Of a DNA stretch of 50,868 bases, positions 2,077 to 50,717 are shown in pieces (position 1 is the first letter of the stretch; each line of letters begins with the position of its first letter). The position numbers were made by a program, and so were the translations under genes. Source of the stretch: Cumulibacter manganitolerans (GTDB lineage Bacteria; Actinomycetota; Actinomycetes; Mycobacteriales; Antricoccaceae); assembly GCF_009602465.1 (NCBI RefSeq), contig NZ_WBKP01000024.1, forward strand, positions 1 through 50,868. The letters are read 5' to 3'. A model generated the notes under the pieces. It was not told where the DNA came from. It ran no database searches and saw nothing but the letters and a program-made list of their open reading frames with translations.

Positions 2077-3981
2077 GTGAGCTCGACCGAGCAGCAGAGC
2101 ACATACCGGACGCGCCGCCAGCGCGCCGCGGCGATCGGCGGCGCCGCCCTGCTGGTCCTCGGCGCGGTGCTCGCGTGGTCGGTCGGTGGGGGACTGGCCG
2201 CCCTGATCGACGGCGACGGGTTCCGGCCCGCCTACCCGCGGCTGCACCCCGAGGCGTTCCGCGGCGTGCTGCGCGGCGACGACGGCGCGCAGCTGGTCAG
2301 CATCGCCGGCGGCGGCCCCCGCGGCTGGTGGATCGCCGCGGCCGCCGCGATCCTGCTGGTGTGGATCATTCTGGTGGTCCGCCCGCTCGTGCGGCGCGGC
2401 CGCGCCGACCCCCGCCGCAAGGTGCTGCTCAGCGCGCAGACCGCCGCCAAGGAGCTGTCCCTGGCGCAGGTCCGCAAGAACGGCCGCTACACCCGCCCCC
2501 ACCTCACCAGCCGCCGCGGCGCGGGCGCGGAGTTCGGGTACTACCTCGGCCGGCTCGCCGGCTCAAAGCAGGACCTATGGGTCGACTTCGAGAAACGGGT
2601 CCGCATCATCGCCCGGCCCGGCTGGGGCAAGACCTCCCGGCTGCTGGTGCCGATCGCCCGCGGCGTCCCCGGCGCCGCACTCATCGGCTCGGTCAAGGCC
2701 GACCTGTTCGAGCAGACCGTCACCGCCCGCCAGCAGCGCGGCACGGTCCGCGTCGTCGACTTCAGCGCGCCCGCCGACCGGATCGCCGAAGGGTTCCCGG
2801 AGGTCACCTGGAACCCGATCAACGGATGCGAAGACCTCTCGGTCGCGACCCGCCGCGCCGCGGCCCTGGTCGCCGGCAGCGAGGACGGCAACCGCGAAGA
2901 CCACGACGACGCGTTCTGGCGCCAATCCGCCCGCCAGGTCATCGAGGCCTGGCTGCACGCCGCCGCCCTCGCCGGCCTCGGCATCAGCGACGTGCTGCGC
3001 TGGCAGGAGAACATCCGCTCCCCCGAACCGTTCGACATCCTGCGCCAGCACCCCGCCGCCGAGCAGCGGGCCCTGCTGGCGCTGACCAAGCACCTCGACG
3101 ACCGCGCCGAGCGCACCACCAGCTCCGTGGAGCGGTTCATCGTCCTCGCCCTCGGCCCGTTCGCCTCCGCGATCGGGCAACGGTTCGTCGGCGCACCCCA
3201 AGACAGTCTCGATATTCGCCGCGCGATCGCCGAGCACGAGACCATCTACCTGCTCGCCAGCGAGGACACCGCCGGCGCCGCCGCGCCCGTGCTCACCCTG
3301 TTCGCCGAGGAATGGTTCTACCAAGCCCGCGCCCTCGCCGCCTCGAAACCGGGCGGGCGCCTCGCCCCGCCCGCGGTCGCGGTCCTCGACGAGCTGCGCT
3401 GGCTCGTCCCACTCCCCAGCCTGCCCGCGATCGCCTCCCGCGACCGGGCCGCCGGCATCGGCCTCATCTACGCCCTGCAGACCATGCGCCAAGAGGTCGA
3501 GCTGTACGGGCCGAGCTCGGAATCCCTCGAGTCCGGTGCCGTGCAGGTGTCGATCTTCGGCGGCTACGACAAGTCCGCCGCGCAGACCATCACGTCGCAG
3601 GCCGGGCCCGCGCTCGTGCCGACCGTCAGCGTCGGCGGGTCGATGCTGCAGGGCCCGCACTTCACCGACAGCGAGCAGCACCAAGACGCCCTCAACGCCG
3701 CCGACCAGCAGCAGCTCCGCGACGGCGACTCCGTACTGCGCGTTTCCGGGCTACCCCTGGCGTACATGCACACCCCCAGCTTCCGCGAGAACCGCCGCCT
3801 CGCCCGCGCCATCCGCCAGGAAGAACAACAGGTGCAGCAGGCCACGGCGGCCGCGCGCGTGCACGCCGCCGACCAGCGGCAGCGGGAGTACCAGCAGCAC
3901 ACCGCCGCCTACCAGGCCCGCACTACCCGGCCCGAGGCGGACGATACGAGCGCGCGGGGGAGTGAGCAGTCATGGTTCTAG
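2077..3981 (+). CDS. Type IV coupling protein, TraG/VirD4 family
   Basis: A 634-aa ATPase that would bring the relaxase-DNA complex to the transfer channel. Two N-terminal membrane segments lie at ~19-41 and ~83-102. The Walker A motif is ARPGWGKTS (K185/T186), followed by the family's GSVKADL strand. Walker B is AVAVLDELRWL (D438/E439), and the C-terminal region carries the usual TraG/VirD4 sequence AGIGLIYALQTMRQ. I chose the GTG at 2077 because AGGAGA at 2064-2069 sits 7 nt before it; the frame is open further upstream, but that part is a shadow of the lipoprotein gene. The C-terminus (from ~590) is Gln/Arg-rich and probably flexible. It overlaps the next gene by 10 nt. Together with the MobF relaxase at 15453-19577 it marks this as conjugative DNA. 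Confidence 0.92.
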   Translation: MSSTEQQSTYRTRRQRAAAIGGAALLVLGAVLAWSVGGGLAALIDGDGFRPAYPRLHPEAFRGVLRGDDGAQLVSIAGGGPRGWWIAAAAAILLVWIILVVRPLVRRGRADPRRKVLLSAQTAAKELSLAQVRKNGRYTRPHLTSRRGAGAEFGYYLGRLAGSKQDLWVDFEKRVRIIARPGWGKTSRLLVPIARGVPGAALIGSVKADLFEQTVTARQQRGTVRVVDFSAPADRIAEGFPEVTWNPINGCEDLSVATRRAAALVAGSEDGNREDHDDAFWRQSARQVIEAWLHAAALAGLGISDVLRWQENIRSPEPFDILRQHPAAEQRALLALTKHLDDRAERTTSSVERFIVLALGPFASAIGQRFVGAPQDSLDIRRAIAEHETIYLLASEDTAGAAAPVLTLFAEEWFYQARALAASKPGGRLAPPAVAVLDELRWLVPLPSLPAIASRDRAAGIGLIYALQTMRQEVELYGPSSESLESGAVQVSIFGGYDKSAAQTITSQAGPALVPTVSVGGSMLQGPHFTDSEQHQDALNAADQQQLRDGDSVLRVSGLPLAYMHTPSFRENRRLARAIRQEEQQVQQATAAARVHAADQRQREYQQHTAAYQARTTRPEADDTSARGSEQSWF

Positions 3982-36758: not shown

Positions 36759-37886
36759 TTAACGTTGGGCAGGTTCACCTCCCCACCTGGGTAGTTCAAG
36801 GACGAACGTGGCTCCGCCTTCTCCGGAGTCGAGTGCCCGCAGTCTGCCGCCGTGCGACTCGGCGATCCCGCGTGCGATGGTGAGCCCGACGCCGGACCCC
36901 CTACCGTCTGCGTGTCGGGCGGAGTCGCCGCGGTAGAAGCGTTCGAAGACGTGCTCGAGGTGATCGGTTGGGATGCCTTCGCCGGTGTCGTGAACCGTGG
37001 TGGTGACCTGCTCGTTAGAACTCGTCACATTAAGGGTTACCGATCCGGTCGGGGGCGTGTGTCGCAGCGCGTTGGATAGCAGATTCTCCAACAGCTGTCC
37101 GAGTCGTTCCGGATCGCCGATCACGCGTGGCTCGTGGGTGTGCTCGGGCGTGTGCACATCCAGGGCGACGTTCTTGTCTTTGAAGGCGCCGCGCACGTCG
37201 TCCGCGGTCGCGCGCACGACGGTGCTGAGGTCGATGACCTCGAGGTGAACGGTGAGGCGGTGTTCCTCGGCGCGCGATACCTCGCTGAGATCGCTGGCCA
37301 GGCGGGTGAGCCGGTCTACTTGGGATCGGAACACGCGCAGGGCGTGCGGGTCCCACTCGGTCACGCCGTCCTCGAGTCCTTCCAGGCGCGCGGCCAGGGT
37401 GGCAAGAGGAGTGCGTAGTTCGTGCGCGATATCGGTGAGTAGCCGCCGTCGGGTGGTTTCGGTTGTTTCCAGCTGCAGGGCCATGTGGTTGAACGACTGA
37501 CCGAGGGTGTCGATCTCCGCGCCCTGCCCGGTGTCGGCGACGCGGACGTGGTGCTCGCCCTGGGCGACCGCGTGCGCGGCATCGCTGAGCGCGTGCAGGG
37601 GCTTGGTGATGCGCTGGGTGACGTACCAGGTCACCGCGACCGCGAGAATGAGCGCGGTCAGTAGCGCGGTGCTCAGCGAGACCAGGCTGGAGGAGGCGTA
37701 GGCCTCGTCGATGTGTCCGAGTGTGGCGTCCTCGAGGTGGCCGGCTTGCACGAGGTGCTCGTGGAAGAGCTGTGGCCCGAGTAACGCCGCAACGGCGCCG
37801 GCGGTCGAGACTCCGGCGAGTAGGACGATGGTCTGGGCGATGAACAGTCGTCCACCGATTCCGCTGAGCAGTTGTGGGCGGTTCAT
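36759..37886 (-). CDS. Two-component sensor histidine kinase
   Basis: A 375-aa membrane kinase. Two membrane helices (~13-37 and ~70-90) flank a short external segment with several His residues (FHEHLVQAGH, GHID) that could sense Cu or Ag. HAMP (~90-142), HisKA with the phospho-acceptor DIAHELRTPL (H155) and a HATPase domain (NLLSNALRH, DTGEGI, GSGVGLTI) follow. The start overlaps the response-regulator stop by 4 nt. Resembles CusS/CutS-type kinases; copper as signal is inferred from neighbours. Confidence 0.9.
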   Translation of the reverse strand: MNRPQLLSGIGGRLFIAQTIVLLAGVSTAGAVAALLGPQLFHEHLVQAGHLEDATLGHIDEAYASSSLVSLSTALLTALILAVAVTWYVTQRITKPLHALSDAAHAVAQGEHHVRVADTGQGAEIDTLGQSFNHMALQLETTETTRRRLLTDIAHELRTPLATLAARLEGLEDGVTEWDPHALRVFRSQVDRLTRLASDLSEVSRAEEHRLTVHLEVIDLSTVVRATADDVRGAFKDKNVALDVHTPEHTHEPRVIGDPERLGQLLENLLSNALRHTPPTGSVTLNVTSSNEQVTTTVHDTGEGIPTDHLEHVFERFYRGDSARHADGRGSGVGLTIARGIAESHGGRLRALDSGEGGATFVLELPRWGGEPAQR

Positions 37887-38590
37887 CGCACGACCATGCG
37901 GTAGCCGACCCCGCGGACCGTCTCGATATATCGGGGATCGGCGGCGTCGTCAGCCAGCTTCTTGCGCAGGTTCGCGATGTGCACGTCGACGATGTGGTCA
38001 TCCCCGATCCAGTTTTCGTCCCAGATCTGGTCAAGTATCTGGCGTCGGGTGCGGACCACGGCCGGCTGGGCGCTGAGCGTATCGAGCAGATCGAACTCGG
38101 TCCTGGTCAGCGCGACGGGTGTGCCCTTGAGCAGCACTCGGTGCCCCGCTACATCGACGATGAGCTCGCCGAACTGACGCATGTGCGCGGCGGACGGTTC
38201 GTGGTGCTGCAGACGGGGGCGGCGCAGTACCGCCTGGACGCGGGCGACGAGCTCGCGCAGGCTGAACGGTTTGGTGATGTAGTCATCGGCGCCGACCGAA
38301 AGCCCGATGATCTTGTCCACTTCATCATCACGCGCGGTCACCATGAGCACGTAGCAGTCAGAGAAGGTACGGATCTGACGACACACTTCCACTCCATCCA
38401 GCCCGGGGAGGCCGAGGTCGAGGATCACGACGTCCGGACGCAGCCGCTGCGCTGCCTGCAGTCCCTCTGGTCCGGTGTGCACGACGTTCGCGTCGAGGCC
38501 GGCGCGTTGGAGATACGTCTTGATCATCTCGGCGAGGTCCGCTTCGTCCTCAACGATCAGCACGCTCGGCGAATACCCTTGGGTGGTCAC
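37883..38590 (-). CDS. OmpR/PhoB-family response regulator
   Basis: A 235-aa regulator. The receiver domain has the acidic pair in VEDE, the phospho-acceptor D58 (VILDLGLPG) and K108-type KPF motif. The C-terminal winged helix (~140-235) ends with GVGYRMV. It is transcribed first, then the kinase. The intergenic region to the divergent SHOCT-oxidase operon contains three TCTTG direct repeats (38650, 38673, 38693), a plausible binding array controlling the oxidase operon. Confidence 0.92.
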   Translation of the reverse strand: MTTQGYSPSVLIVEDEADLAEMIKTYLQRAGLDANVVHTGPEGLQAAQRLRPDVVILDLGLPGLDGVEVCRQIRTFSDCYVLMVTARDDEVDKIIGLSVGADDYITKPFSLRELVARVQAVLRRPRLQHHEPSAAHMRQFGELIVDVAGHRVLLKGTPVALTRTEFDLLDTLSAQPAVVRTRRQILDQIWDENWIGDDHIVDVHIANLRKKLADDAADPRYIETVRGVGYRMVVR

Positions 38591-38702
38591 GGCGTCATCC
38601 TCCTTCAGTTCCCCGCGAACTGGCCGCTGCGCGTCCGGTCTTCATGAGATCTTGACCGTTTGCCCGGGGTGGTCTTGAACTGGCCGGTGCAGTCTTGTCG
38701 AC

Positions 38703-38963
38703 ATGATGGGAATGCATGCAGCTACCAGCGGGTGGATGTGGATGCTCATGGTCGTCTGCGTCGTCGGGTTCTGGCTCGCCGCGTGGCTTCTCGTGCGCGG
38801 TGTCACACGCGATCGCGCCCCCCACGCCGCACATGGTGACGACTCGGTGACCAGCAGCGATCCGGCGCGTCTGCTGGACGAGCGGCTAGCACGCGGCGAT
38901 ATCGATCTCGATGACTACCTGGACCGGCGCGGGCTAATCGCCGACTACGCGCCGCGGCGCTGA
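38703..38963 (+). CDS. SHOCT-domain small membrane protein
   Basis: An 86-aa protein: a Met/His-containing start (MMGMHAATSGWMWM), one membrane helix (~10-32) and a C-terminal SHOCT motif (ARLLDERLARGDIDLDDY). SHOCT domains are short C-terminal oligomerisation modules. Its gene ends 3 nt before the oxidase start, so it is the first gene of the copper-oxidation operon and is divergent from the two-component genes. Function is unknown; the Met/His-rich face could contact copper. Confidence 0.78.
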   Translation: MMGMHAATSGWMWMLMVVCVVGFWLAAWLLVRGVTRDRAPHAAHGDDSVTSSDPARLLDERLARGDIDLDDYLDRRGLIADYAPRR

Positions 38964-38966
38964 GTA

Positions 38967-40445
38967 GTGCCTGTGACTGACACTCCATTTCCTGCGCTGT
39001 CTCGACGTCAGGTTCTCCTCGGCGGTCTTGGCGTCCTCGGCGCGGCGGTGCTGGCGGGCTGTTCCGGGCCCGCTTCCTCACCGTCGGTGTCCTCCCGCCC
39101 GTTCGGGGCGGCACCGGCCCTCACGCCCAAACCGGGTCAGAACGTCGTGTCCGCGACCGTGGTTCCCCAGGCGACAACCCTGGATATCGGCGGCACCACC
39201 GTCAACACGTGGGCCTACGCCGATAGCGTGCCCGGCCCGCAGATTCGCGCGACAGCCGGCGATCTGCTGCGCGTGACGGTCGATAACCAGCTGCCAGCGG
39301 ACACCTCCGTGCATTGGCACGGGATCCGGCTTCGCAACGTCGCCGATGGCGTTCCTGGAGTGACCCAGGATCCCATCGGTAAGGGCGAAAAGTACGTGTA
39401 CGAGTTCGAGGCCCCCGACCCAGGCACCTACTTCTTCCACCCGCATACCGGCGTCCAGCTCGACCGTGGGCTGTACGCGCCGCTGATCATCGACGACCCC
39501 GCCGAACCAGGGCAGTACGACCTGGAATGGATCATCGTGCTGGACGACTGGATCGATGGCACCGGAACCACTCCTGACGAGGTTCTTGCGACCCTGACCA
39601 GCGACCAGGGTGGCTCCGGCGGGATGGACCACGGATCGATGCCGATGGGGCCGGCCCCATTCGGTGAGGCCGGTGACGTGACATACCCGCACTACGTGAT
39701 CAATGGGCGCACTCCCGCCGCCCCTACCTCCTTTGACGGGGCCCCCGGTCAACGGGTGCGGATGCGAGTGATCAACGCGGCCTCGGACACGATCTTCGCG
39801 GTGGCGCTCGGCGGGCACACTCTCCAGATCACCCACTCAGATGGCTTCCCCGTCCAACCAGTCCAGACCGCCGCCTTCTATATCGGCATGGGGGAACGTT
39901 ACGACGCCATTGTGACCCTCGGCGACGGGGTGTTCCCGCTCTACGCCGAACCGTTCAACAAGAAAGGGGCCGCCCTCGCGACCGTGCGCACCGCCACCGG
40001 ACAGGCGCCGACCGCCGCGTCCCGTCCCGTCGAGCTGTCAGCGGACGTGCTGGTCGGCTCTGACCTCATCGCCGCGGACTCGGCCCGTCTGCCGTCACAA
40101 GCGCCGGATCGTGAACTCGAGCTATCCCTAGATGGGCAGATGACGCCGTACCAGTGGGGTATGAATGGCGCACCGTTCGGGCAGAATAAGCCGTTGATCG
40201 TCGGCGAGGGTGAGCGGGTCAGGATCAACATCGCCAACAAGACGATGATGGCGCACCCGATCCACCTACACGGGCACACGTTCGCCCTCACCAGTACCGG
40301 CCTACGCAAGGACACCGTGGTCCTGGCACCGATGCAGTCTCAGGCGATCGAGTTCGATGCCGACAACGCAGGCGACTGGGCGCTGCACTGTCACAACATT
40401 TACCACGCAGAGGCCGGAATGATGACCCTGCTGAACTACGGATGA
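38967..40445 (+). CDS. Multicopper oxidase (CueO/CopA-like), Tat-exported lipoprotein
   Basis: A 492-aa cuproprotein that would oxidise Cu(I) to Cu(II) outside the cell. The N-terminus has a twin-arginine motif (SRRQVLLGG) and a lipobox (LAGC), so it is exported folded and anchored. The four copper-binding strings are intact: HWHG, HPHTG, HPIHLHGH and HCHNIYHAEAGM. A Met/His loop (MDHGSMPMG) resembles the Met-rich substrate segment of CueO. The start is GTG 38967 (or 38973). It overlaps the following lipoprotein gene by 4 nt. Confidence 0.93.
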   Translation: MPVTDTPFPALSRRQVLLGGLGVLGAAVLAGCSGPASSPSVSSRPFGAAPALTPKPGQNVVSATVVPQATTLDIGGTTVNTWAYADSVPGPQIRATAGDLLRVTVDNQLPADTSVHWHGIRLRNVADGVPGVTQDPIGKGEKYVYEFEAPDPGTYFFHPHTGVQLDRGLYAPLIIDDPAEPGQYDLEWIIVLDDWIDGTGTTPDEVLATLTSDQGGSGGMDHGSMPMGPAPFGEAGDVTYPHYVINGRTPAAPTSFDGAPGQRVRMRVINAASDTIFAVALGGHTLQITHSDGFPVQPVQTAAFYIGMGERYDAIVTLGDGVFPLYAEPFNKKGAALATVRTATGQAPTAASRPVELSADVLVGSDLIAADSARLPSQAPDRELELSLDGQMTPYQWGMNGAPFGQNKPLIVGEGERVRINIANKTMMAHPIHLHGHTFALTSTGLRKDTVVLAPMQSQAIEFDADNAGDWALHCHNIYHAEAGMMTLLNYG

Positions 40446-41302
40446 GGAACGTGCGACCACTACAGACTGCAGCAATCTCCCTGGCACTAATCGGAACGCT
40501 CGCACTGAGCACCGGCTGCTCCGAACAACGCCCAGCCTCCGCACCCTCGGCCGCCACGACCGCCATGCCCGCGGACACTCACATCCACGGCGCCGTCCGT
40601 GATCCCGCCGACGGCACGCTGCTGATCGCGACCCATCATGGATTATTCAAGGAGTCCGGTGATGGTCTGACCTCCGTCGGGCCCGTCGTTGATCTCATGG
40701 GGTTCGCGCTCGCCCCCGATGGCACGTACTACGCATCTGGGCATCCCGGAATGCAGACCGATCTGCCGCAGCCGCTTGGGCTGGTTCAGTCCACCGACGG
40801 CGGCGCCACGTGGGACGTCCTCTCGCGCGGCGGTGAATCCGACTTCCACGCCCTCGCCGTCGGCGAGGACCAGGTGGTCGGTTACGACGGGGCCCTGCGC
40901 CAAAGCGCCGACGGCAAGGAATGGACGACACACGCGATACCGCAAGAACCGATCTCTCTGGCCATCTCCCCGGATGGTTCCACCGTGCTCGCATCCACCG
41001 GCACTGCAGTGTTGCGGTCCGGCACCGATCTGAGTACCTGGAGCCCGTTACCGGCCGCGCCGCCGGCACTGCTGGTCACCTACGCCGACGACTCCACGAT
41101 CATCGTCCTCGCCCAGGACGGACGGTTGCACCAAAGCGACGACGGTGGCACAACATGGACGGCGGGAACCACCCCGGTTCCCACCCCAAGCTCCCTATCG
41201 GCCACCCGAGTGGATGACACCACCGTCGAGGTCCTCGTGGGCTCAGGCAACCGCGTGCTGAGCACGACCGATCTCGGTGCAACCACCTCGCCCCTCGTCT
41301 AG
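40442..41302 (+). CDS. BNR/sialidase-like repeat lipoprotein (F510_1955-type)
   Basis: A 286-aa lipoprotein: lipobox LALSTGCSE (Cys ~26), then a beta-propeller made of BNR-type repeats (STDGGATWDVLS, SADGKEWTTHA, SDDGGTTWTAG) with HIHG near the start of the mature part. Proteins of this type often follow multicopper oxidases in actinobacterial copper islands and are annotated F510_1955 family glycosylhydrolases, though no glycosidase site is visible. It is coupled to the oxidase gene and may be its surface partner. Confidence 0.82.
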   Translation: MRNVRPLQTAAISLALIGTLALSTGCSEQRPASAPSAATTAMPADTHIHGAVRDPADGTLLIATHHGLFKESGDGLTSVGPVVDLMGFALAPDGTYYASGHPGMQTDLPQPLGLVQSTDGGATWDVLSRGGESDFHALAVGEDQVVGYDGALRQSADGKEWTTHAIPQEPISLAISPDGSTVLASTGTAVLRSGTDLSTWSPLPAAPPALLVTYADDSTIIVLAQDGRLHQSDDGGTTWTAGTTPVPTPSSLSATRVDDTTVEVLVGSGNRVLSTTDLGATTSPLV

Positions 41303-41375
41303 GCGACATCATCACCATCGCGTTACCGGGTACCGCGAACTCGACCCAGAGTCAGCACACATAGAGGAGAAGCTC

Positions 41376-41942
41376 ATGAGCATGAAGAAATACGCGGCCC
41401 TGGCCATTCTGCTGATCAGCGCGCTGGTGACCACCGCGTGCAGCAGTGAGAACGAGCCCGCCGCGAACGCAAACGACAAGCACAACGCGGCCGACGTCAC
41501 GTTCGCAACGGGCATGATCCCGCACCATCAACAAGCCATCGAAATGGCCGACATGGCCCTCGAGCAGGCACAAGACCCCCAGGTGAAGGAACTCGCTGAC
41601 CAGATCAAGGGTGCGCAGCAGCCGGAGATCGACCAGCTCACTGAGTGGCTGACGGCGTGGGACGAACCTGTTCCCAGCGACTCCACCGGCGGCCACTCCG
41701 GACACGACATGTCCGGAATGATGAGCGAGGAGGACATGCAGATGCTGAAGCAGGCCAGCGGGACCGAGTTCGACACGATGTGGCTGGAGATGATGATCGA
41801 GCATCACAAGGGCGCGGTCGAGATGGCTCAGACCGAGCAGTCAGACGGCGAGTACCCCGAAGCCATCGAGATGGCCAAGCAGATCATCAGCAGCCAGCAA
41901 GAAGAGATCGACCAGATGGAGCAGATACTCGCCGCCTCATAG
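41376..41942 (+). CDS. DUF305 lipoprotein, likely copper-binding
   Basis: A 188-aa protein with a signal and lipobox (ALVTTACSS) and a helical DUF305 domain. The two family motifs GMIPHHQQAIEMA (~47-59) and MMIEHHKGAVEMA (~140-152) are intact, and a Met/His loop (HSGHDMSGMMSEEDMQM) sits between them. DUF305 proteins are common in copper clusters and probably chelate Cu through the His/Met groups. ATG 41376 has AGAGGAG ~7 nt upstream. It follows the oxidase and BNR lipoprotein genes by 73 nt. Confidence 0.88.
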   Translation: MSMKKYAALAILLISALVTTACSSENEPAANANDKHNAADVTFATGMIPHHQQAIEMADMALEQAQDPQVKELADQIKGAQQPEIDQLTEWLTAWDEPVPSDSTGGHSGHDMSGMMSEEDMQMLKQASGTEFDTMWLEMMIEHHKGAVEMAQTEQSDGEYPEAIEMAKQIISSQQEEIDQMEQILAAS

Positions 41943-42006
41943 GGCACTACCGGTCACTACCGGCGCGCTCCGTCGAGTGAGAACCCGACACCAACCAGGT
42001 TAGGCC

Positions 42007-42027
42007 GTATACCCCTAGGGGGTATAC
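42007..42027. promoter_or_regulatory. CsoR-type copper operator
   Basis: A perfect inverted repeat: GTATACCCC and GGGGTATAC separated by TAG, 48 nt before the copB start. G/C-tract palindromes of the form TACCCC...GGGGTA are the usual CsoR/RicR-family sites. No csoR gene is present in this window, so a host or off-window regulator would act here. Confidence 0.75.
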
Positions 42028-42074
42028 ACTTCGTGGTGTTGATGAACGGCGAAACCGAAGCGTGAGGATGAGCG

Positions 42075-44237
42075 ATGAACGAATCTGCGACGGCAGCCGG
42101 CACCGCCTCGGGCGGTCATGTCCATCACCAGGACGGGCACGCGCATCACGATGAGCATGTAGAACACGGCCACGCCCGTGCCAGCATGGCCGTCGACTCG
42201 TCGCACGGCAGGCACGGTGGTCATGGCGGTCACGGTGGTCATGGTGATCATGTGGGCCAGTTCCGGCGGCTGTTCTGGGTCATGCTGGTGGTCGCGGTTC
42301 CGGTGATCGCGTTCTCGCCGATGTTCGGGATGCTCGTCGGCTACTCGGTGCCGGGTTGGGCGGTGTGGATCTCGCCGGCGCTGGGCACCGTGATGTACCT
42401 CTGGGGCGGGCAGCCGTTCCTGAGCGGCGCGGTGAGCGAGATCCGGGCGCGCGCGCCCGGGATGATGCTGTTGATCGGTCTCGCGATCACCGTGGCGTTC
42501 GTCGCCTCGTGGGGAGCGAGTCTTGGTCTGCTGCATCACGAGCTTGATTTCTGGTGGGAACTGGCGCTGCTGATCGTGATCATGCTCCTGGGGCATTGGG
42601 TCGAGATGCGTTCGCTCGCGCAGACCACATCAGCACTGGACTCCCTGGCCGCACTGCTGCCCGACGAGGCCGAGCGCGTGGACGGAGATACGACGGTCAC
42701 CGTCCACCCCGCCGAATTGCGGGTCGGCGATGTGGTCGTGGTGCGTCCCGGCGGGCGGGTGCCGGCCGATGGCCGGGTCGTGCAGGGCTCGGCCAGCATG
42801 GACGAGTCCATGATTACCGGCGAGTCCAAACCAGTGCGCCGCGCCGAGGACGATCCTGTTGTCGCCGGCACCGTCGCGACCGACTCGGGTGTGCGCGTGG
42901 AGATCACGGCCACTGGCGAGGACACCGCCCTGGCTGGCATTCAGAAGCTGGTAGCGCAGGCACAGAGCTCGTCTTCGCGGGCGCAGCGGATCGCCGACCG
43001 GGCAGCGGGGTGGTTGTTCTGGTATGCCCTCGCCGCAGCCGTCATCACGGCGGCAGTGTGGTCGCTCGTGGGGCTGCCCGATGCTGGTGTTGTTCGTACG
43101 ATCACCGTGCTGGTGATCGCCTGCCCGCACGCGCTCGGGCTCGCGATCCCTTTGGTGGTGTCGATCGCGACCGAACGCGCGGCCCGTGGCGGGGTACTGG
43201 TGAAGGACCGACTCGCCCTGGAGACCATGCGCAAGGTCGATACGGTGCTGTTCGATAAGACCGGCACGCTCACCAAGGGCGCCCCCGCGGTGATCGAGAT
43301 CGAGGCTGCCGCCGAGCGGGAGGCAGACGAGCTCCTGGCTCTTGCCGCCGCCGCAGAGGCCGACTCGGAGCACCCGTTGGCTCGGGCGATCGTCGCGGCA
43401 GCGCGGCAGCGCGATCTGGTGATCCCTGCCGCGTCCGGGTTCAGCTCGTCGCCGGCAGTCGGCGTCCGCGCAGAAGTCGACGGCCGCACGGTGCAGGTTG
43501 GCGGACCGTACCTGCTCGAGCAGGAGGACGCCAGTGAGCATCCTGTCGCCGCGAAGTGGCGGGAGCAGGGAGCGATCATTCTGCACGTGCTGATCGACGG
43601 CCAGATTGCCGGCGCACTGCGGCTCGCCGACGAGATCCGGCCCGAGTCTCAGGCCGCGATCCACCAGCTGCACGATCGCGGAGCCCAGGTCGTGATGATC
43701 ACCGGGGACGCCGAGACTGTGGCCGCATCGGTCGCCACCGAGCTCGGCATCGATCGTTACTTCGCCGGGGTCCGCCCAGCGGACAAGGCCTCCAAGGTGC
43801 AACAGCTGCAATCCGAAGGGCGGACTGTGGCGATGGTCGGCGACGGCGTGAACGACGCCCCCGCGCTAGCGCAGGCCGACGTCGGTATCGCGATCGGCGC
43901 CGGCACCGACGTGGCCATCGGCTCGGCAGGCGTGATCCTGGCTAGCGACGATCCCCGCTCGGTGCTCTCGGTAATGGAGCTGTCGAGCGCCAGCTACCGC
44001 AAGATGAAACAGAACCTCTGGTGGGCTGCCGGATACAACCTCGTCTCGGTGCCGCTCGCTGCCGGTGTCCTCGCCCCGATCGGGTTCGTGCTGCCGATGT
44101 CGATCGGTGCGATCCTGATGTCAATCTCGACCGTGATCGTGGCGATCAACGCGCAGCTGCTGCGGCGGCTCGACCTTCGCCCCGAGGAGACGCCGCCTGC
44201 TGAGCGCACGTTGAGTCAGACGGCGCGCTCAGAATGA
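42075..44237 (+). CDS. copB: Copper-translocating P1B-3-type ATPase (CopB)
   Basis: A 720-aa copper exporter. The N-terminal ~60 residues are His-rich (HVHHQDGHAHHDEHVEHGH, then GGHGGHGGHGDH) in place of an HMA domain. The membrane metal motif is CPH (C350-P351-H352 in VIACPHALGLAIP), which defines the P1B-3/CopB group, usually Cu(II) or Ag. The phosphorylation site DKTGT (D394), MITGESKP and MVGDGVNDAPAL are intact. It is preceded by a CsoR-type operator. Confidence 0.95.
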   Translation: MNESATAAGTASGGHVHHQDGHAHHDEHVEHGHARASMAVDSSHGRHGGHGGHGGHGDHVGQFRRLFWVMLVVAVPVIAFSPMFGMLVGYSVPGWAVWISPALGTVMYLWGGQPFLSGAVSEIRARAPGMMLLIGLAITVAFVASWGASLGLLHHELDFWWELALLIVIMLLGHWVEMRSLAQTTSALDSLAALLPDEAERVDGDTTVTVHPAELRVGDVVVVRPGGRVPADGRVVQGSASMDESMITGESKPVRRAEDDPVVAGTVATDSGVRVEITATGEDTALAGIQKLVAQAQSSSSRAQRIADRAAGWLFWYALAAAVITAAVWSLVGLPDAGVVRTITVLVIACPHALGLAIPLVVSIATERAARGGVLVKDRLALETMRKVDTVLFDKTGTLTKGAPAVIEIEAAAEREADELLALAAAAEADSEHPLARAIVAAARQRDLVIPAASGFSSSPAVGVRAEVDGRTVQVGGPYLLEQEDASEHPVAAKWREQGAIILHVLIDGQIAGALRLADEIRPESQAAIHQLHDRGAQVVMITGDAETVAASVATELGIDRYFAGVRPADKASKVQQLQSEGRTVAMVGDGVNDAPALAQADVGIAIGAGTDVAIGSAGVILASDDPRSVLSVMELSSASYRKMKQNLWWAAGYNLVSVPLAAGVLAPIGFVLPMSIGAILMSISTVIVAINAQLLRRLDLRPEETPPAERTLSQTARSE

Positions 44238-44292
44238 CAAGTCGGCCCGTTCCTAGACAAAGGTCTCAGGCCAAGATCGGAGAATCGCGCAC

Positions 44293-44619
44293 ATGAAAGT
44301 ACAGGTTCTGTACATCGAAGAATGCCCAAACTGGCAGGAAGTCGGGGCCCTGACCAAGCACGCCTTCGAGACGATCGGCATCGACGACGTACCGATCGAG
44401 TACGTGGCGATTCGCACCGAAGCCGATGCGGGCGCGGTACCGTTCGCTGGATCTCCGACGATCGTGCTCGAGGGGAAGGATTTGTTCCCCCCAGACGGGC
44501 ACACCCGCGCTCTCGCCTGCCGGGTCTATCCCACAGAGCACGGACTCGCGGGAACACCAACCCAGGCGCAGCTCGAAGAGGCCATCCGCTTGCGCATCTC
44601 CAGTAATCCGTCTGCCTGA
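44293..44619 (+). CDS. Small thioredoxin-fold protein (alkylmercury-lyase-like annotation)
   Basis: A 108-aa protein of thioredoxin fold. It starts with a strand followed by YIEECPNWQE, giving a single active Cys (C11) in a CPxW motif, and has a cis-Pro-like AGSPTIVLEGKDLFP and a C-terminal RVYPTEHGLAGTPT. Such proteins are sometimes labelled 'alkylmercury lyase' but lack that enzyme's catalytic domain. It follows copB by 55 nt and may shuttle metal or electrons. It has no second resolving Cys in the motif; C76 is the only other one. Confidence 0.75.
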   Translation: MKVQVLYIEECPNWQEVGALTKHAFETIGIDDVPIEYVAIRTEADAGAVPFAGSPTIVLEGKDLFPPDGHTRALACRVYPTEHGLAGTPTQAQLEEAIRLRISSNPSA

Positions 44620-44956
44620 TTAGCGGTCTGCTCTCGAGCAGGGGTGCGGCAGCGTGCCAGGCAGCGCTGCGTCAGCTGGCTGACGCGCTACATGGCGTTG
44701 AATGAGCGAGGGCGAGTATCCCGGCCTCGGTAGCGGAAAACGAGATGTTGAGACCCGCAGCGCAAGGGCGGCATGGACTACGTCCTGCTCGAGTCGAAAT
44801 CAAAACATAGACATGCCACCACCACTACCGACCGTCGCCGTCGCCGTCGCCCCAGTTTCCTTCCGCCTCCGTTGCCGTACCGATTCACGTCCGCCTAGGG
44901 ACTACACGAGAGACGAGTGCACCGAGCGCTTGCTGGGTCCCTGCGCGTTTGAGTGC
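44620..44956. other. Gap between the thioredoxin-like gene and ctaG
   Basis: About 340 nt between convergent genes. No recognisable gene, repeat or strong terminator is visible; a CACCACCACTACCGACCGTC stretch at about 44818 is merely C-rich. Confidence 0.35.
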
Positions 44957-45937
44957 TCACGCCGGTCGATTCGTCGTGGCATCCGCGCGGGGTTCGGAGC
45001 CGGCCGCGGCGAGTCGAGCGAGGCGCCTGTTGTACTGAAGTAGCTCCGCATCCCCGTCGCGCGCGGCCTGCCGGTCGTACGAGCGCGCGAGGCGTGCATC
45101 GGAGCGGACCCATTGGATCGCGACCACGAGCGCGACGATCAGCGCCGGGATCTCACCGGTCGCCCACGCGATACCGCCGGCGAGGTACTGGTCCCGGATC
45201 GGGTCGATACCCCAACCTGCCGGCGCGGTCAGGGACGTCAGCGCCACCGGGCTAGACATCAGCGCAATCCCAAAGAACGCGTGAAACGGCATCGCGATGA
45301 CCAGCTGCCCGAGCCGGGTCAGCGGTTGCGGGTTCCGCGGGTTGGGATCCACCCCGAGAATCGGCCAGTAATAGAGCAGACCGACCGCGACAAAGTGCAC
45401 CAGCATGTAGAAGTGGCCCCACCACGAGCTCATCAAGAAATCGAACAACGGAGTGAAATAGAGCCCGAACAGACTCAAGATGAACAGTGGCGTGCTGAAC
45501 AGCCCGCTCGAGACAACCTTCGCGAAACGCGAATGAAGGACGGCGAGCACAACACGGCGGGGTCGACCACGCGGTCGCAGCACCCGAAGGGCGAGCGTGA
45601 CCGGCGCGCCCAGCAGCAGAAAGATCGGCGCCACCATGCTCAGCACCATGTGCTGCCCCATATGCACGCTGAACAGCTGCATCGAGTAACCGCCCACGCC
45701 GGTCGAGACAACCAGCAGCATGCTCGCGATACCCCCGGCAAAAGCGATCGTCCGCAGCAGTGGCCACTGCACCCCGCTACTCCGCAGGCGCAGCACCCCG
45801 ACGACATACACCAGCAAGGCCGCGATGCACAGCAGCTCCAATAGCGGGATGGGCTGCGGATGCCACGCCAGCAACCGTCCCAACGTCGGAGGTTGCGTCG
45901 GCATCCACATCGGGAACGAATGCCCTGAATGACCCAT
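44957..45937 (-). CDS. CtaG-family (caa3-type) cytochrome oxidase assembly membrane protein
   Basis: A 326-aa protein with seven membrane helices and conserved His residues in QLFSVHMGQHMVLSM, WWGHFYMLVHF and PFHAFFGIAL. This is the Bacillus CtaG type (DUF1404-like), implicated in copper delivery to the CuB or CuA site of cytochrome oxidase. It starts with a Met/His-containing MGHSGHSFPMWMP. The C-terminal tail (SYDRQAARDGDAELLQYNRR) recurs as a relic at 27090-27210. It is oriented against copB. Confidence 0.88.
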   Translation of the reverse strand: MGHSGHSFPMWMPTQPPTLGRLLAWHPQPIPLLELLCIAALLVYVVGVLRLRSSGVQWPLLRTIAFAGGIASMLLVVSTGVGGYSMQLFSVHMGQHMVLSMVAPIFLLLGAPVTLALRVLRPRGRPRRVVLAVLHSRFAKVVSSGLFSTPLFILSLFGLYFTPLFDFLMSSWWGHFYMLVHFVAVGLLYYWPILGVDPNPRNPQPLTRLGQLVIAMPFHAFFGIALMSSPVALTSLTAPAGWGIDPIRDQYLAGGIAWATGEIPALIVALVVAIQWVRSDARLARSYDRQAARDGDAELLQYNRRLARLAAAGSEPRADATTNRPA

Positions 45938-46008
45938 CGCTCAGCCCCTCACGATCCGACTAGATCCCAGCACTTGGCCGCTCCAGCAGTCTTCCTGCGC
46001 ACCCGCAT

Positions 46009-47085
46009 CTAGACGTGCGCCCCCGCGGGGCTGATGTGGATCACTGCGCTGGTCAACCGCGGCAACCGCTCCAACAGATGCTCTTCCGCGTGGTGCGCGA
46101 TGTCGTGGCCCTCACGAACCGGCAGCTGTGCTGCGACCACGACATCGGCCTCAGCGCGTAGCGTGTGCCCGACCCACCGCAGCCGCAGCTCACGTACCTC
46201 GCGCACACCCTCGACCGTGGTGACCGCCTCGCGCGCGGCGCGCACCAGTTCCGGATCGACCGCGTCCATCAACCGCGCCCCTACCTGCTTGATCGCCGAG
46301 CGCAGCACGCCCAGGATCACTACTGCGATTACCAGTCCGATCACTGGATCGGCCCACGGCAGCCCGACCGCCACCCCGATTGCGCCGAGCACGACGGCCA
46401 GCGACGTGTATCCGTCGGTTCGCGCATGCAAGCCGTCGGCAACCAGCGCCGCCGACCCGATCTGGCGACCCACCCGGATCCGGTACCGCGCAACCAGCTC
46501 GTTACCGATAAACCCGATGACTCCAGCTGCCGCGACCGCCCACACGTAGCTCATTTCCCGCGGGTTCATCAACCGGTTGATGGCCTGCCACGCAGCGAGC
46601 ACGCTCGATAGCGCGATCATCGCAACCACGAAAATCCCCGCGAGGTCTTCGGCGCGCCCGTACCCGTAGGTAAACCGATCGTTCGCTGGACGCCGAGCCA
46701 ACCAGAACGCAATCAGGATCGGCACTGCGGTCACCGCATCCGCGACGTTGTGCAACGTGTCGCCCAGCAGCGCAACGGACGCAGTAAACACCACCACTAC
46801 GGCCTGCAGAACAGCAGTGATCCCCAACGCGGCCAGGCTGATCCACAATGCCCGCCGCCCCCGCGCGTCGGCTTCCAACGCCGAATCGACCTGATCAGCC
46901 GAATCATGCGAATGCCCGCCAACCAGCTCACTGACCGCATGCCGCATCCGTGCCCACCGCCCAGGCGCGGACTCGCCATGCTCATGGGCGTGTCCGCTCC
47001 GGCCATCATCGCTATGCGCACCGGCGGCGCTGGGCGTGCCGATCTCGCGGACCCGGGAGGGGTCGGTATTCAGGCGATGGCTCAC
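46009..47085 (-). CDS. Cation diffusion facilitator exporter (Ni/Co/Zn type)
   Basis: A 358-aa CDF protein with a His-rich N-terminal extension (GHAHEHGES, GGHSHDS) and six helices. The first site is GDTLHNVAD (D109, H112, D116), and the second is ADGLHARTD (D217, H220, D224). A C-terminal domain follows, ending in VIHISPAGAHV. Both intramembrane sites have the full residue sets, unlike the first CDF. Its start overlaps the ArsR stop by 4 nt. With that NmtR/KmtR-like sensor it would export Ni/Co or Zn. Confidence 0.9.
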   Translation of the reverse strand: MSHRLNTDPSRVREIGTPSAAGAHSDDGRSGHAHEHGESAPGRWARMRHAVSELVGGHSHDSADQVDSALEADARGRRALWISLAALGITAVLQAVVVVFTASVALLGDTLHNVADAVTAVPILIAFWLARRPANDRFTYGYGRAEDLAGIFVVAMIALSSVLAAWQAINRLMNPREMSYVWAVAAAGVIGFIGNELVARYRIRVGRQIGSAALVADGLHARTDGYTSLAVVLGAIGVAVGLPWADPVIGLVIAVVILGVLRSAIKQVGARLMDAVDPELVRAAREAVTTVEGVREVRELRLRWVGHTLRAEADVVVAAQLPVREGHDIAHHAEEHLLERLPRLTSAVIHISPAGAHV

Positions 47086-47438
47086 GACACGACACCTACC
47101 CCGCGGTGATGCGGCGGCACGTCGTCCAACAAGTGCTCGACATGCCCGATGGTGTCCACGACGAGCTGGCGCACATGACCGTTCTCCACCCGGTACAACA
47201 CCGAGCTACCGTCGCGGCGAGTCACCACCAACCTGGCCATCCGCATCTTCGCCAGATGCTGCGAGACCGCCGGAATCGGCCGATCCAGCTCGCCGGCCAG
47301 CTCGGTCACCGACTTCTCCTCATCGAGCAACAATCCCGCCAGCTGAAGACGAGTCCGATCCGCCAGAACCCGCAGTACTTCCACCGCAAGCGTGACCAGG
47401 TCGTCGTCCCACACCGGAGGTTGCGTATTTGCGTGCAT
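47082..47438 (-). CDS. ArsR-family nickel/cobalt-type sensor (NmtR/KmtR-like)
   Basis: A 118-aa repressor with the HTH at ~45-75 (VTELAGELDRPIPAVSQHLAKM). The alpha5 helix holds H88, H99 and H102 with the usual spacing (H-x10-H-x2-H); the Asp that normally begins the set is Asn (N86). The tail adds H110-H111 (DVPPHHRG). Extra tail histidines are characteristic of the Ni/Co sensors NmtR and KmtR. I chose the ATG at 47438 over the TTG at 47444 because it lies at the palindrome centre. It controls the coupled CDF gene. Confidence 0.87.
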   Translation of the reverse strand: MHANTQPPVWDDDLVTLAVEVLRVLADRTRLQLAGLLLDEEKSVTELAGELDRPIPAVSQHLAKMRMARLVVTRRDGSSVLYRVENGHVRQLVVDTIGHVEHLLDDVPPHHRGVGVVS

Positions 47439-47446
47439 GCGCAAAT
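47427..47446. promoter_or_regulatory. Candidate ArsR operator over the start codon
   Basis: Arms ATTTGCG and CGCAAAT separated by 6 nt. The dyad covers the start codon of the ArsR-CDF operon, as expected for autorepression. Confidence 0.5.
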
Positions 47447-48046: not shown

Positions 48047-48078
48047 TTGACCTTGACCCTGAGGGCAGGATTTAGGTT
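48047..48078 (+). promoter_or_regulatory. MerR-type promoter (long spacer)
   Basis: TTGACC at 48047-48052 and TAGGTT at 48073-48078 are separated by 20 nt, longer than the 17-nt optimum, as in promoters that MerR proteins activate by twisting the DNA. A second TTGACC at 48053 offers an alternative. It lies directly upstream of the merR-peroxiredoxin gene. Confidence 0.4.
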
Positions 48079-48099
48079 CGTTGCTGACGGAGGTGGGAC

Positions 48100-49047
48100 A
48101 TGCGCATCGGAGAACTCGCGGACCGGGCTGGGGTCTCGGTCAAGGCGATCCGTTACTACGAGCAGATCGGCCTCATCACACCGTCGCGCAGCGACAACGG
48201 GTACCGCTGCTTCGATGAGGATCAGCTGCGCACTGTCGCCGAGATCCGCGCGCTCAGCGAGATCGGCATCACCGCCCACCGCGCCGGGGCGTTCATCGAA
48301 TGCCTGGACGCGGGCCACGAGCACAGCGACGAGTGCGTCAGCTCGCTGGCGGTGTATCGCGACACGATCGCGGAACTGGACCGCATGATCTTCGAGCTGA
48401 CCGCGCGACGTCGTCAACTGCAGCAGCGCCTGCACCAGAGCGCGGGGCGAACATTCGACAAGGAGCCAACGATGACCGACTACACCACACTGCCTGATGG
48501 GCTGCCCGTCCCGGGCGACGACGGCGCGGCCGATCACCTGCCGGGACTGCGGCTGCCCGAGGTCGAGCTGCCGACCAGTGATGGCGGCGTGGTGCGACTC
48601 CACGAGCTGGGGCCAGGCAGGAGCGTGATCTACCTGTACCCGCTGACCGGCCGGCCGGGGGTGGACCTGCCCGACGGATGGGATGCGATCCCCGGTGCTC
48701 GTGGTTGTTCGACCGAGGCCTGCGACTTCCGCGACCACTTCCGTGACCTTCGCGAAGCCGGCGCCGACCAGGTGTACGGGATGTCGAGTCAGAGCCCGGC
48801 CTATCAGGCTGAGGTCGTGCAGAGGTTGTCGCTGCCGTTCTCGATGATCTCCGACAAATCGCTGGCGGTGGCCGACGCCCTGCGCCTGCCCACGTTCGCC
48901 GCCGAAGGCCACGAACGCCTCTACACGCGGCTCACGCTGGTCGTGCAGAACGGGGCAATCGAGCACGCGTTCTACCCGATATTCCCCCCGAACACCCACG
49001 CCCAGCAGGTCGTTGGATGGCTTCAAGCGCATCCGCGCGACCACTGA
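48100..49047 (+). CDS. MerR-family regulator fused to a peroxiredoxin domain
   Basis: A 315-aa two-domain protein. Residues 1-~118 are a MerR regulator: HTH (IGELADRAGVSVKAIRYYEQ), dimerisation helix and cysteines C37, C68 and C79, the last two in a loop (CLDAGHEHSDEC). Residues ~145-315 are a peroxiredoxin-like thioredoxin fold with the peroxidatic-type motif GCSTEACDFRDHF (C203, C208). No stop codon separates the parts. At the junction an AAGGAG with 6-nt spacing precedes an in-frame ATG (48472), so the redoxin can also be made alone from 191 codons. In most genomes such regulators and redoxins are separate neighbours; here they are in one frame. It may couple peroxide or metal sensing to detoxification. 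Confidence 0.85.
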   Translation: MRIGELADRAGVSVKAIRYYEQIGLITPSRSDNGYRCFDEDQLRTVAEIRALSEIGITAHRAGAFIECLDAGHEHSDECVSSLAVYRDTIAELDRMIFELTARRRQLQQRLHQSAGRTFDKEPTMTDYTTLPDGLPVPGDDGAADHLPGLRLPEVELPTSDGGVVRLHELGPGRSVIYLYPLTGRPGVDLPDGWDAIPGARGCSTEACDFRDHFRDLREAGADQVYGMSSQSPAYQAEVVQRLSLPFSMISDKSLAVADALRLPTFAAEGHERLYTRLTLVVQNGAIEHAFYPIFPPNTHAQQVVGWLQAHPRDH

Positions 49048-49145: not shown

Positions 49146-50039
49146 ATGTTCACTGGACTCAGTGCCTTTCCCCTCACCCCGCTCACCAACGACGCGGTCG
49201 ACGAAAGCTCGTTCGCGGGCCTTGTTGAACGTCTCGCCGCCGTCGGGGTCGATTCGATCACCACGTTGGGCTCGACCGGTTCCTACGCCTACCTGAGCGC
49301 TCAGGAGCGCGCCCGGGTCGCTCGTGTCGCTGTCGAGCATGCGGCCGACACCCCGGTGGTTGTCGGTATCGGGGCGCTGCGGACTTCACAGGTCCTCGCG
49401 AACCTACGCAGCGCGCAGGACGCGGGAGCCGCCGGTGTTCTGCTTGCCCCGATGACTTACCAACCCCTGAGCGCAGCCGAAGTGCTCGACCTGTTCACCG
49501 CTGTCGCCGAGCACGCCGAAGTGCCGGTGATCGTCTACGACAACCCCACCACGACCCGCTTCACGTTTACCACCGACCTCTACGGCCGGATCGCCGCGCT
49601 GCCTGGAATCGCGTCGATCAAGATCCCCGCCGTACCGGCCGACCCGTGTCAGGCTCGGGCACGCGTCGACGCGATCCGGGCGGTCATCCCCGACCACGTC
49701 ACAATCGGGGTCTCAGGTGACGCGTACGCAGCGGCCGGCCTGACCGCGGGCGCCGACGCCTGGTACTCCGTCCTCGGCGGCACCCTGCCCGAACCCGCAC
49801 TGAAGATCACCCGCGCCGCACAAACCGGTGACCCCACCGGCGCATCAACGCAGTCCAAGCGACTGGCACCACTGTGGTCACTGTTCGATGAGTTCGGCAG
49901 CCTACGCGTCGTCGCCGCAATCGCAGAACACCTCGATCTGGCACCGCACGGGTGCCTGCCCCTGCCAGTCCACGGACTACGCCAGCACCACCGAGACCGC
50001 GTCGCCGCGGTGCTCCACGAGCTCGAGCTCACGCCCTAA
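49146..50039 (+). CDS. DapA/NanA-superfamily class I aldolase
   Basis: A 297-aa TIM-barrel lyase of the dihydrodipicolinate synthase family. The Schiff-base lysine is K159 (IASIKIPAVP), and the catalytic Tyr is Y131 in VIVYDNPTTT. The pyruvate-binding loop reads LGSTGSYAYL, not GTTGE as in true DapA, so the aldehyde partner is likely different and it need not make lysine. Normal length. It stands alone next to the redoxin gene and has no operon partner. Its 3' end overlaps the DUF1016 gene on the other strand by 63 nt. Confidence 0.88.
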   Translation: MFTGLSAFPLTPLTNDAVDESSFAGLVERLAAVGVDSITTLGSTGSYAYLSAQERARVARVAVEHAADTPVVVGIGALRTSQVLANLRSAQDAGAAGVLLAPMTYQPLSAAEVLDLFTAVAEHAEVPVIVYDNPTTTRFTFTTDLYGRIAALPGIASIKIPAVPADPCQARARVDAIRAVIPDHVTIGVSGDAYAAAGLTAGADAWYSVLGGTLPEPALKITRAAQTGDPTGASTQSKRLAPLWSLFDEFGSLRVVAAIAEHLDLAPHGCLPLPVHGLRQHHRDRVAAVLHELELTP

Positions 50040-50717
50040 GGACAGCGATCCACACAGAACCTGCCGCCCGACAAAGCTGAAGCCGCGACCGAACTCCGAC
50101 AGGGTGCGCTGCAGCTGGTCCATCAACGCGCTCTCCAGGTCGCGTTCGTTCGCCGAGTCGGTGAGGTCGAGGAAATCAAAGACATACGGGTCGCGGGTGA
50201 GCTGCTGTGCGAGATCGGACTCCGCCGGCGGCAACCGGTCGACGAAGTTCGAGGGCGCGGAGCCCGACCGGCGGTGCAGCTGGTTCTTGATCTGGTTCAG
50301 CAGCATGTTGCGAGACCAGCCGCGTTCGGCTGCGGCCGCGGCGTACCAGTCGCGGATCTGCGGATCATCGAGGCGGTCGAGCAACACCATGACGTGCCCC
50401 CAGGGCAATTGGCCAGCAGCTTGCTGGCCAATTCCCGAAGGCCACGCGGCGGCCGCCTGGCGCATGTACTTCAGGCTCGACCGAGAGAACCCGCGCATCT
50501 GCGGGAACTCCGCCCGCAGGTCGTCGGCGAGCCGGTCAATCACCCGCGTACCCCAGCCTTCGGCCCCCTGGCGATCCAGGATTGCTCGTCCGATCCGCCA
50601 GTACAGATTCAGCACCGCGGTGTTGACCACGCGATGTGCGCGGTGCTGCGCCGCGCGGACCTCGGCAAGCCGACGTCCATCCGCTGGCCGCCGAGCCGCC
50701 GACTCGCAGTCTCGCAA
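49977..50717 (-). CDS. DUF1016 (YhcG-like) protein lacking its nuclease domain
   Basis: A 246-aa frame. The DUF1016 N-terminal domain is clear: NTAVLNLYWRIGRAIL, LADDLRAEFPQMRGFSRSSL, QLPWGHVMVLLDRL and DWYAAAAAERGWSRNML. Full YhcG-type proteins (~340-380 aa) continue with a PDDEXK nuclease domain containing (L/V)DLLFYH and xIELK. Here homology ends at VGRQV (~50063), and the last ~27 residues are antisense to the aldolase gene, so the nuclease half is gone. The N-terminus is also ill-defined: the frame starts at a TTG ~20 nt from the IS end. It is probably inactive. A perfect 12-bp hairpin (50407-50433) lies within the coding part. Confidence 0.7.
   Translation of the reverse strand: MRDCESAARRPADGRRLAEVRAAQHRAHRVVNTAVLNLYWRIGRAILDRQGAEGWGTRVIDRLADDLRAEFPQMRGFSRSSLKYMRQAAAAWPSGIGQQAAGQLPWGHVMVLLDRLDDPQIRDWYAAAAAERGWSRNMLLNQIKNQLHRRSGSAPSNFVDRLPPAESDLAQQLTRDPYVFDFLDLTDSANERDLESALMDQLQRTLSEFGRGFSFVGRQVLCGSLSLGRELELVEHRGDAVSVVLA
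50407..50433. repeat. Perfect 12-3-12 hairpin inside the DUF1016 gene
   Basis: AATTGGCCAGCA and TGCTGGCCAATT with GCT between. The encoded peptide (GQQAAGQLPWGH) is normal for the family, so the hairpin is probably a by-product of coding sequence. Confidence 0.5.

Follow-up and report, generated by a model that had tools for sequence, protein, structure and literature searches.

A MerR-peroxiredoxin fusion gene as a candidate one-gene, autoregulated oxidant-defence circuit

The fusion gene and its surroundings

The sequence analysed here (the window) is the 50,868-nt stretch at positions 1-50,868 of contig NZ_WBKP01000024.1 of Cumulibacter manganitolerans (RefSeq assembly GCF_009602465.1), read on the forward strand. 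At 48100-49047 (+), a single open frame running from the ATG at 48100 to the stop codon encodes a protein of 315 residues that joins a MerR-type regulator to a peroxiredoxin. The original prediction had described a MerR helix-turn-helix and dimerisation helix that continue without a stop into a peroxiredoxin with the motif GCSTEAC (residues 202-208), and both the Pfam matches and the 315-codon frame agree with this description. The N-terminal part carries the winged helix-turn-helix of the MerR superfamily (PF00376 at residues 2-38; E 2.4e-16; 59.7 bits, above the cut-off of 28.2), and the C-terminal part has the AhpC-TSA/Redoxin fold of the peroxiredoxin superfamily, as indicated by Foldseek and by Pfam (AhpC-TSA at 201-287, E 3.7e-12; Redoxin at 149-298, E 5.3e-12; both above the curated cut-offs).

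Based on Pfam, on the predicted structure, and on the match to CueR (4wls, E 6.6e-13), which is the solved structure nearest to the MerR half by sequence, the winged helix-turn-helix (about residues 1-58) and the dimerisation helix (80-115) were assigned to 48100-48444 (+). The structure prediction shows a long helix at residues 80-115, a low-confidence stretch (pLDDT <50 at residues 115-130), and a peroxiredoxin fold in the remainder. The linker, residues 116-130 (48445-48489, +), is predicted to be disordered, and the packing of the two domains against each other was predicted without confidence (pTM 0.56). The first five Foldseek matches were PrxQ/Bcp proteins or a PrxQ/Bcp-type alkyl hydroperoxide reductase, with target-normalised TM-scores of 0.78-0.84. 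None of the curated NCBIfam equivalog models was reached by the fusion protein.

Downstream of the fusion, a gene of the dihydrodipicolinate-synthase family (Pfam DHDPS; 49146-50039, +) is perhaps co-transcribed with it and would be accessory at most. A conserved operon partner was rejected, given that a DHDPS-type gene adjoins the fusion in 3 of the 40 loci checked (the window, L055, and L070) and that every neighbouring family is limited to at most 6 of 81 stretches, indicating that the fusion gene is a stand-alone unit. A DUF1016/YhcG-type nuclease frame (49977-50717, -) overlaps the 3' end of the DHDPS-type gene; the C-terminal domain of the nuclease is truncated, covering 50 of 157 profile positions. 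On the other side of the fusion, positions 36759-47444 hold metal-resistance genes, i.e. those for a histidine kinase, a multicopper oxidase, a DUF305 protein, a P-type ATPase, and a CtaG-type protein, along with a cation-efflux transporter accompanied by an ArsR-type regulator (all by Pfam). The earlier suggestion of Cu is matched by these neighbours in the window but not by any recurrent family among the 81 stretches, and it is one of context only.

Distribution, phylogeny, and invariant cysteines

A search for the same two-domain architecture elsewhere, proposed together with the original prediction, retrieved the uninterrupted fusion in 119 loci corresponding to 103 distinct proteins; the in-frame fusion is therefore real and widespread. 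A frameshift or missed stop at the join was rejected because the same open frame is present in the 119 loci. Eighty of these loci come from named genomes (genome_contigs), where they scored highest among 399 related stretches, and were hence picked for full length, so that the genus, class, and phylum samples described below are less biased. The 103 proteins include L118, cut by a contig end, and L094, whose C-terminal part is out of frame, and exclude L089, whose MerR front is out of frame; L089 and L094 are decayed copies.

Among the named genomes, all 80 best-scoring loci were fused, and their titles name 26 genera, 25 of them actinobacterial. The locus titled Sporosarcina (L106) has 65% GC and is probably a misplaced actinobacterial contig. 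Matches were found in 724 plasmid records, and in six of these the match extends over 80% or more of the query; every one of the six is from Streptomyces (54.5% or 46% identity) and is annotated as 'redoxin family protein' or 'MerR family transcriptional regulator'. In the phylum sample, the full-length fusion was found in 2 of 396 genomes (the window's own and G237). The Streptomyces-type genus of G237 contained 42 matching places in 41 of 392 genomes, comprising 35 full-length fusions, 2 fusions with a broken frame, and 5 peroxiredoxins only. A match was seen in 18 of the 345 genomes of the class sample (7 fused, 11 with the peroxiredoxin alone) and in 9 of 198 genomes of G010's genus, which is probably Mycobacterium sensu lato (5 fused, 4 with the peroxiredoxin alone). 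The opposite expectation raised alongside the original prediction, that homologues would always be two separate genes, was thus not borne out: fused homologues are present in the genus and class samples. In scans covering about 1.5 or 3 kb per side, where the contig allowed, none of the unfused peroxiredoxin loci had an intact MerR gene of the fusion's kind adjoining the enzyme.

Among 61 genomes of the host's near relatives, only the window's own carried the fusion. Its two genus mates gave no match at 1e-20, and this absence suggests that the host gained the gene by acquisition. A phage origin was rejected: when viral_contigs was scanned once, using the window protein as query, no relative was returned.

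A quick tree was built from 158 peroxiredoxin domains. One of its branches, comprising 119 rows (SH-aLRT 91), contained every one of the 109 fused rows along with 10 unfused ones, and the fused/unfused label changed 8 times, compared with 42.1 times in shuffles. The window copy grouped with Leucobacter. This pattern fits a single fusion event followed by several losses of the MerR half, with horizontal spread, and the ten unfused peroxiredoxins inside the fused branch indicate that the enzyme can live without the MerR part. The S. anulatus-type group stands apart in the tree of the MerR domain, which is poorly resolved, and a second, independent fusion event is possible. Two further loci (L092 and L096) have apparent MerR remnants upstream of the enzyme and are decayed copies. 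In another (L093 of G795, ORF 2623-3718), the peroxiredoxin lacks a MerR part and the stop-to-stop frame enters, by eye, from an apparent GNAT acetyltransferase.

Four cysteines are invariant in the 103 fusions: Cys68 in the MerR part (codon 48301-48303, +), Cys79 at the start of the dimerisation helix (48334-48336, +), Cys203, presumed to be peroxidatic (48706-48708, +), and Cys208, presumed to be resolving (48721-48723, +). Cys203 is also present in 49 of 49 unfused relatives and Cys208 in 46 of 49. The next most frequent cysteine column is occupied in 7 of the 103 fusions, a linker cysteine occurs in 11 of them only, and the stretch separating residues 79 and 203 of the window protein is free of cysteines. 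Peroxiredoxins carry the active-site motif PXXX(T/S)XXC and a later Arg. At position C-3, i.e. three residues before the peroxidatic cysteine, where a catalytic Thr or Ser is usual, all 103 fused and all 49 unfused proteins have Ala, so peroxidase activity is not assured; Thr183 is found in 98 and Arg277 in 101 of the 103 fusions. The fusion resembles PrxQ/Bcp proteins (5enu, Mycobacterium tuberculosis BcpB 5epf, and Xanthomonas PrxQ) in its fold and in the two cysteines five residues apart (CX4C), but differs from them in the Ala at C-3, in its fused regulator, and in an insertion of about 15 residues that lengthens the active-site loop before the peroxidatic cysteine, as judged by alignment with the PrxQ motif. 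The PrxQ equivalog models were not reached (PRK09437, 44.2 against 140; PrxQ model, 41.9 against 260).

Promoter, operator, and internal ribosome site

Ahead of the fusion gene lie a -35 hexamer TTGACC (48047-48052, +), a -10 hexamer TAGGTT 20 bp further on (48073-48078, +), and the Shine-Dalgarno sequence GGAGGTG of the full-length protein (48089-48095, +). The pattern TTGAC...TAnnnT was found upstream of 100 of the 103 distinct fused genes, with exactly 20 bp between TTGACC and TAnnnT in all 100; the remaining three (L085, L094, and L152) show near matches. This promoter most often lies 48-53 bases ahead of the start codon. A palindrome fills the 20-bp spacer (family consensus ACCTTGCCCCCGGGGGCAAGGT), and the promoter consensus TTGACCTTGCCCCCGGGGGCAAGGTTTAGCGT contains a perfect 22-bp palindrome; by hand count, the candidate operator of the window (48050-48071, +) matches 6 of the 11 dyad pairs. 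MerR-regulated promoters typically have spacers of 19-20 bp, and an over-long spacer is described as the mark of MerR activation by distortion (PMC9909328). The arrangement expected of the superfamily, a dyad operator within a -35/-10 spacer of this length, is thus present at 20 bp in 100 of 103 genes, and the DNA-binding half of the fusion is evidently in use.

With up to 3 mismatches allowed, and with a pattern written so as to include the window's own site, 48047-48078 was the sole site in the 3.9-Mb window genome, and the reversed-pattern control gave 0. In 12 other genomes, chosen for carrying the fusion, 13 sites were detected, 12 of them upstream of the fused gene, with controls of 0. 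The clearest target of the regulator is therefore its own gene, which appears to be autoregulated, the predicted operator resting on conservation. The thirteenth site (L220, G558:C1:966904-966931) precedes an apparent alpha/beta hydrolase frame and is a possible extra target.

At the junction, an internal Shine-Dalgarno sequence AAGGAG (48460-48465, +) precedes an in-frame ATG (48472-48474). The original prediction had named both elements, which are present as stated, and had given 48464-48474 for the whole, a range that starts too late for the AAGGAG. The possible second product is a free peroxiredoxin of 191 residues (48472-49047, +), to which both the starts of unfused relatives and the statistics of the ribosome site point. 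Among 98 scored fusions, 85 have an in-frame ATG, GTG, or TTG at most 14 codons before the LP..L motif: in 78 the start has a Shine-Dalgarno match of at least 4 bases and in 7 the site is weak, whereas 13 have no start codon. The 98 are the 103 minus L061, L067, L085, L141, and L148, which failed the motif; all five show a junction Met. Matches of at least 4 bases precede 92% of the junction starts (n = 85; a figure that uses the best candidate of each gene and thus somewhat favours the junction), compared with 11% of the other ATGs inside these genes (n = 228) and 93% of main starts (n = 103).

When upstream codons were redrawn synonymously, the share of junction starts with at least 4 bases was 73% (92% observed), and with at least 6 bases it was 24% (52% observed). 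With each of 26 genera represented by a single member and the window added, we counted 27 of 27 with at least 4 bases against 20.6 expected, and 16 of 27 with at least 6 bases against 8.9 expected (P 4e-5 if independent); this set was hand-picked, mostly as the best match of each genus, and its Streptomyces member has the internal start that others lack. The ribosome site proposed at the join is thus better than codon choice predicts. Two unfused peroxiredoxins (L203 and L204) start close to the equivalent position, preceded by a site like GAGGTGAG or GAGGAGGTGA. The internal start looks ancestral and useful, and it has been lost, with the fusion kept, in some genes of Streptomyces, Leucobacter, Leifsonia, and Mycolicibacterium. 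The persistence of fusions without it suggests that the fused protein is a product in its own right and that the free enzyme would be a common but dispensable second one. Sequence signals for two translation products from one autoregulated gene, as in the TipA class, are present in most members, and the conserved internal site suggests that one gene may yield both a fused sensor-activator and a free peroxiredoxin.

A proposed circuit and its competitors

TipA of Streptomyces combines a MerR DNA-binding part and a C-terminal effector in one autoregulated gene (PMC9909328), and has been described as sensor, activator, and neutraliser in a single gene, executed by two translation products (PMC7762955), TipAL and TipAS. 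The fusion has the same layout of DNA-binding part and effector in one gene, but its effector is a peroxiredoxin that would meet an oxidant, whereas TipA binds thiopeptides; the TipAS domain is absent from the Pfam matches of the fusion protein, which is thus not a TipA member despite its TipA logic. We consider it rather probable that the fusion gene is a self-contained, autoregulated oxidant-defence circuit with TipA-like logic and a peroxiredoxin as effector. The case for its autoregulation and for two products comes from comparing sequences, and we infer that the peroxidatic cysteine provides the signal.

In such a circuit, the fused protein would dimerise through the MerR helix, bind the palindrome that lies within its promoter's over-long spacer, and keep this promoter low, as MerR proteins do. 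An oxidant would react at C203/C208 and/or at the MerR thiols C68/C79, and the resulting change, perhaps a thiol-disulphide exchange between the cysteine pairs, would make the MerR part twist the DNA so that transcription starts. Two proteins would be translated from the single transcript: the fused sensor-activator, and a free peroxiredoxin initiated at the internal AAGGAG-ATG. The latter would remove the oxidant and end the signal; lineages without the internal start would work with the fusion alone. This reading is supported by the common architecture of the 103 proteins, the 20-bp operator in 100 of them, the four invariant cysteines, and the Shine-Dalgarno excess at the junction. It is weakened by the Ala at C-3, the loss of the junction start in 13 of 98 genes and its weak ribosome site in 7 more, the 6 of 11 dyad pairs in the window operator, the ten unfused peroxiredoxins in the fused branch, the extra site in G558, and the unsure domain packing.

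The nearest unfused relatives of the MerR part also bear on what is sensed. These are 16 loci (L009-L023 and L098), 42-49% identical to the fusion over most of the MerR part (one at 40%), and in 14 of them a thioredoxin-like WCxxC frame lies directly downstream. A 19-bp-spaced operator with similar CCTTG...CAAGG arms precedes 13 of the 16. All 16 regulators have C68, C79, and a third, C-terminal cysteine. The MerR-thioredoxin pairs thus share with the fusion the two cysteines, the operator arms, and the over-long spacer, but differ in being two adjacent genes, in having a thioredoxin and the third cysteine in the regulator tail, and in the spacer of 19 rather than 20 bp. We found no description of such pairs in our literature search. 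Taken together, the thioredoxin-like genes and operators indicate that this MerR branch goes with redoxins, one of which the fusion ties to the regulator; the role of the lost tail cysteine may have passed to the thiols of the peroxiredoxin.

The main rival to the oxidant circuit is that the MerR half alone senses a thiophilic metal or an electrophile through C68/C79, the peroxiredoxin being a fused effector and not a sensor. The invariance of both cysteines in the 16 unfused relatives, where sensing would occur without a peroxiredoxin, and the position of the window copy among metal-resistance genes speak for it. In MerR, CadR, and ZntR, a cysteine (Cys82, Cys77, and Cys79, respectively) extends into the metal site of the partner (PMC9909328), and the helix register may place C79 at this position; the HMMER alignment, however, sets C79 opposite a valine of CueR. 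The metal sensors CueR, ZntR, and MerR are the best sequence matches of the MerR half, but the fusion lacks their C-terminal metal loop with two cysteines, the window protein having no cysteine between residues 79 and 203, and its scores are all below the cut-offs of their models (CueR, 60.6 against 147.4; ZntR, 53.2 against 167.95; MerR, 42.6 against 150.85). In addition, metal genes are not recurrent neighbours of the 80 other loci, and we regard this rival as unlikely. SoxR and NmlR resemble the fusion in the MerR winged helix-turn-helix, the over-long spacer, and a stress-type role. The fusion differs from SoxR in lacking the four C-terminal cysteines of the [2Fe-2S] cluster (52.7 bits against a cut-off of 116.9), and it scores 46 against 175 with the NmlR model; NmlR/AdhR proteins are not known to have a fused enzyme.

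It is improbable that the gene is an operon remnant in which the stop codon between two genes was lost, the functional protein being a free peroxiredoxin made from the internal start and read-through to the fusion being minor. An internal ribosome site equal in quality to the main start, the similar starts of unfused peroxiredoxins, and the separate adjacent genes of the related MerR and thioredoxin would all fit such a remnant, but the frame is kept though linker length varies, 13 of 98 genes are fused without an internal start, and intact MerR and peroxiredoxin genes occur as separate neighbours at none of the 42 places in 392 Streptomyces-type genomes. More improbable still is a DNA-tethered peroxidase, in which the MerR half would mainly bring the enzyme to DNA or to its own promoter, either to protect or to keep the gene constantly repressed, and oxidants would drive no switching. 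Although a nearly unique operator per genome would fit simple autorepression, the over-long spacer is described as a mark of MerR activation by distortion (PMC9909328) and one site per genome could not protect a chromosome.

Within the favoured oxidant circuit, a more specific version is somewhat doubtful: the C203-C208 disulphide would be passed intramolecularly to C68/C79 of the DNA-bound MerR half, switching on its own gene only, and large amounts of free enzyme made from the internal start would reset the sensor, so that a whole loop of oxidant sensing, response, and shut-off would reside in one horizontally spreading 950-bp gene. If so, a peroxidase would be its own transcription factor, and the economical design of TipA would have been reached again with a redox enzyme. 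Whether peroxiredoxins report directly to bacterial transcription factors is difficult to examine if the enzyme and the sensor are different proteins; in the fusion, they share one chain with four invariant cysteines, a single operator, and almost a single target, and a few point mutants would suffice to test the relay. For applied work in actinobacteria, the fusion gene would be a compact candidate from which to build an oxidant-responsive promoter. In the Prx2-STAT3 relay, a peroxiredoxin passes oxidation to the thiols of a regulator (PMC7481202); such relays involve two proteins, whereas the one proposed here would take place in one polypeptide. Our literature search, which covered mainly open papers and so does not imply absence from print, gave no description of a MerR-peroxiredoxin fusion among the papers listed; the domain combination is already visible in public annotation, under generic names only.
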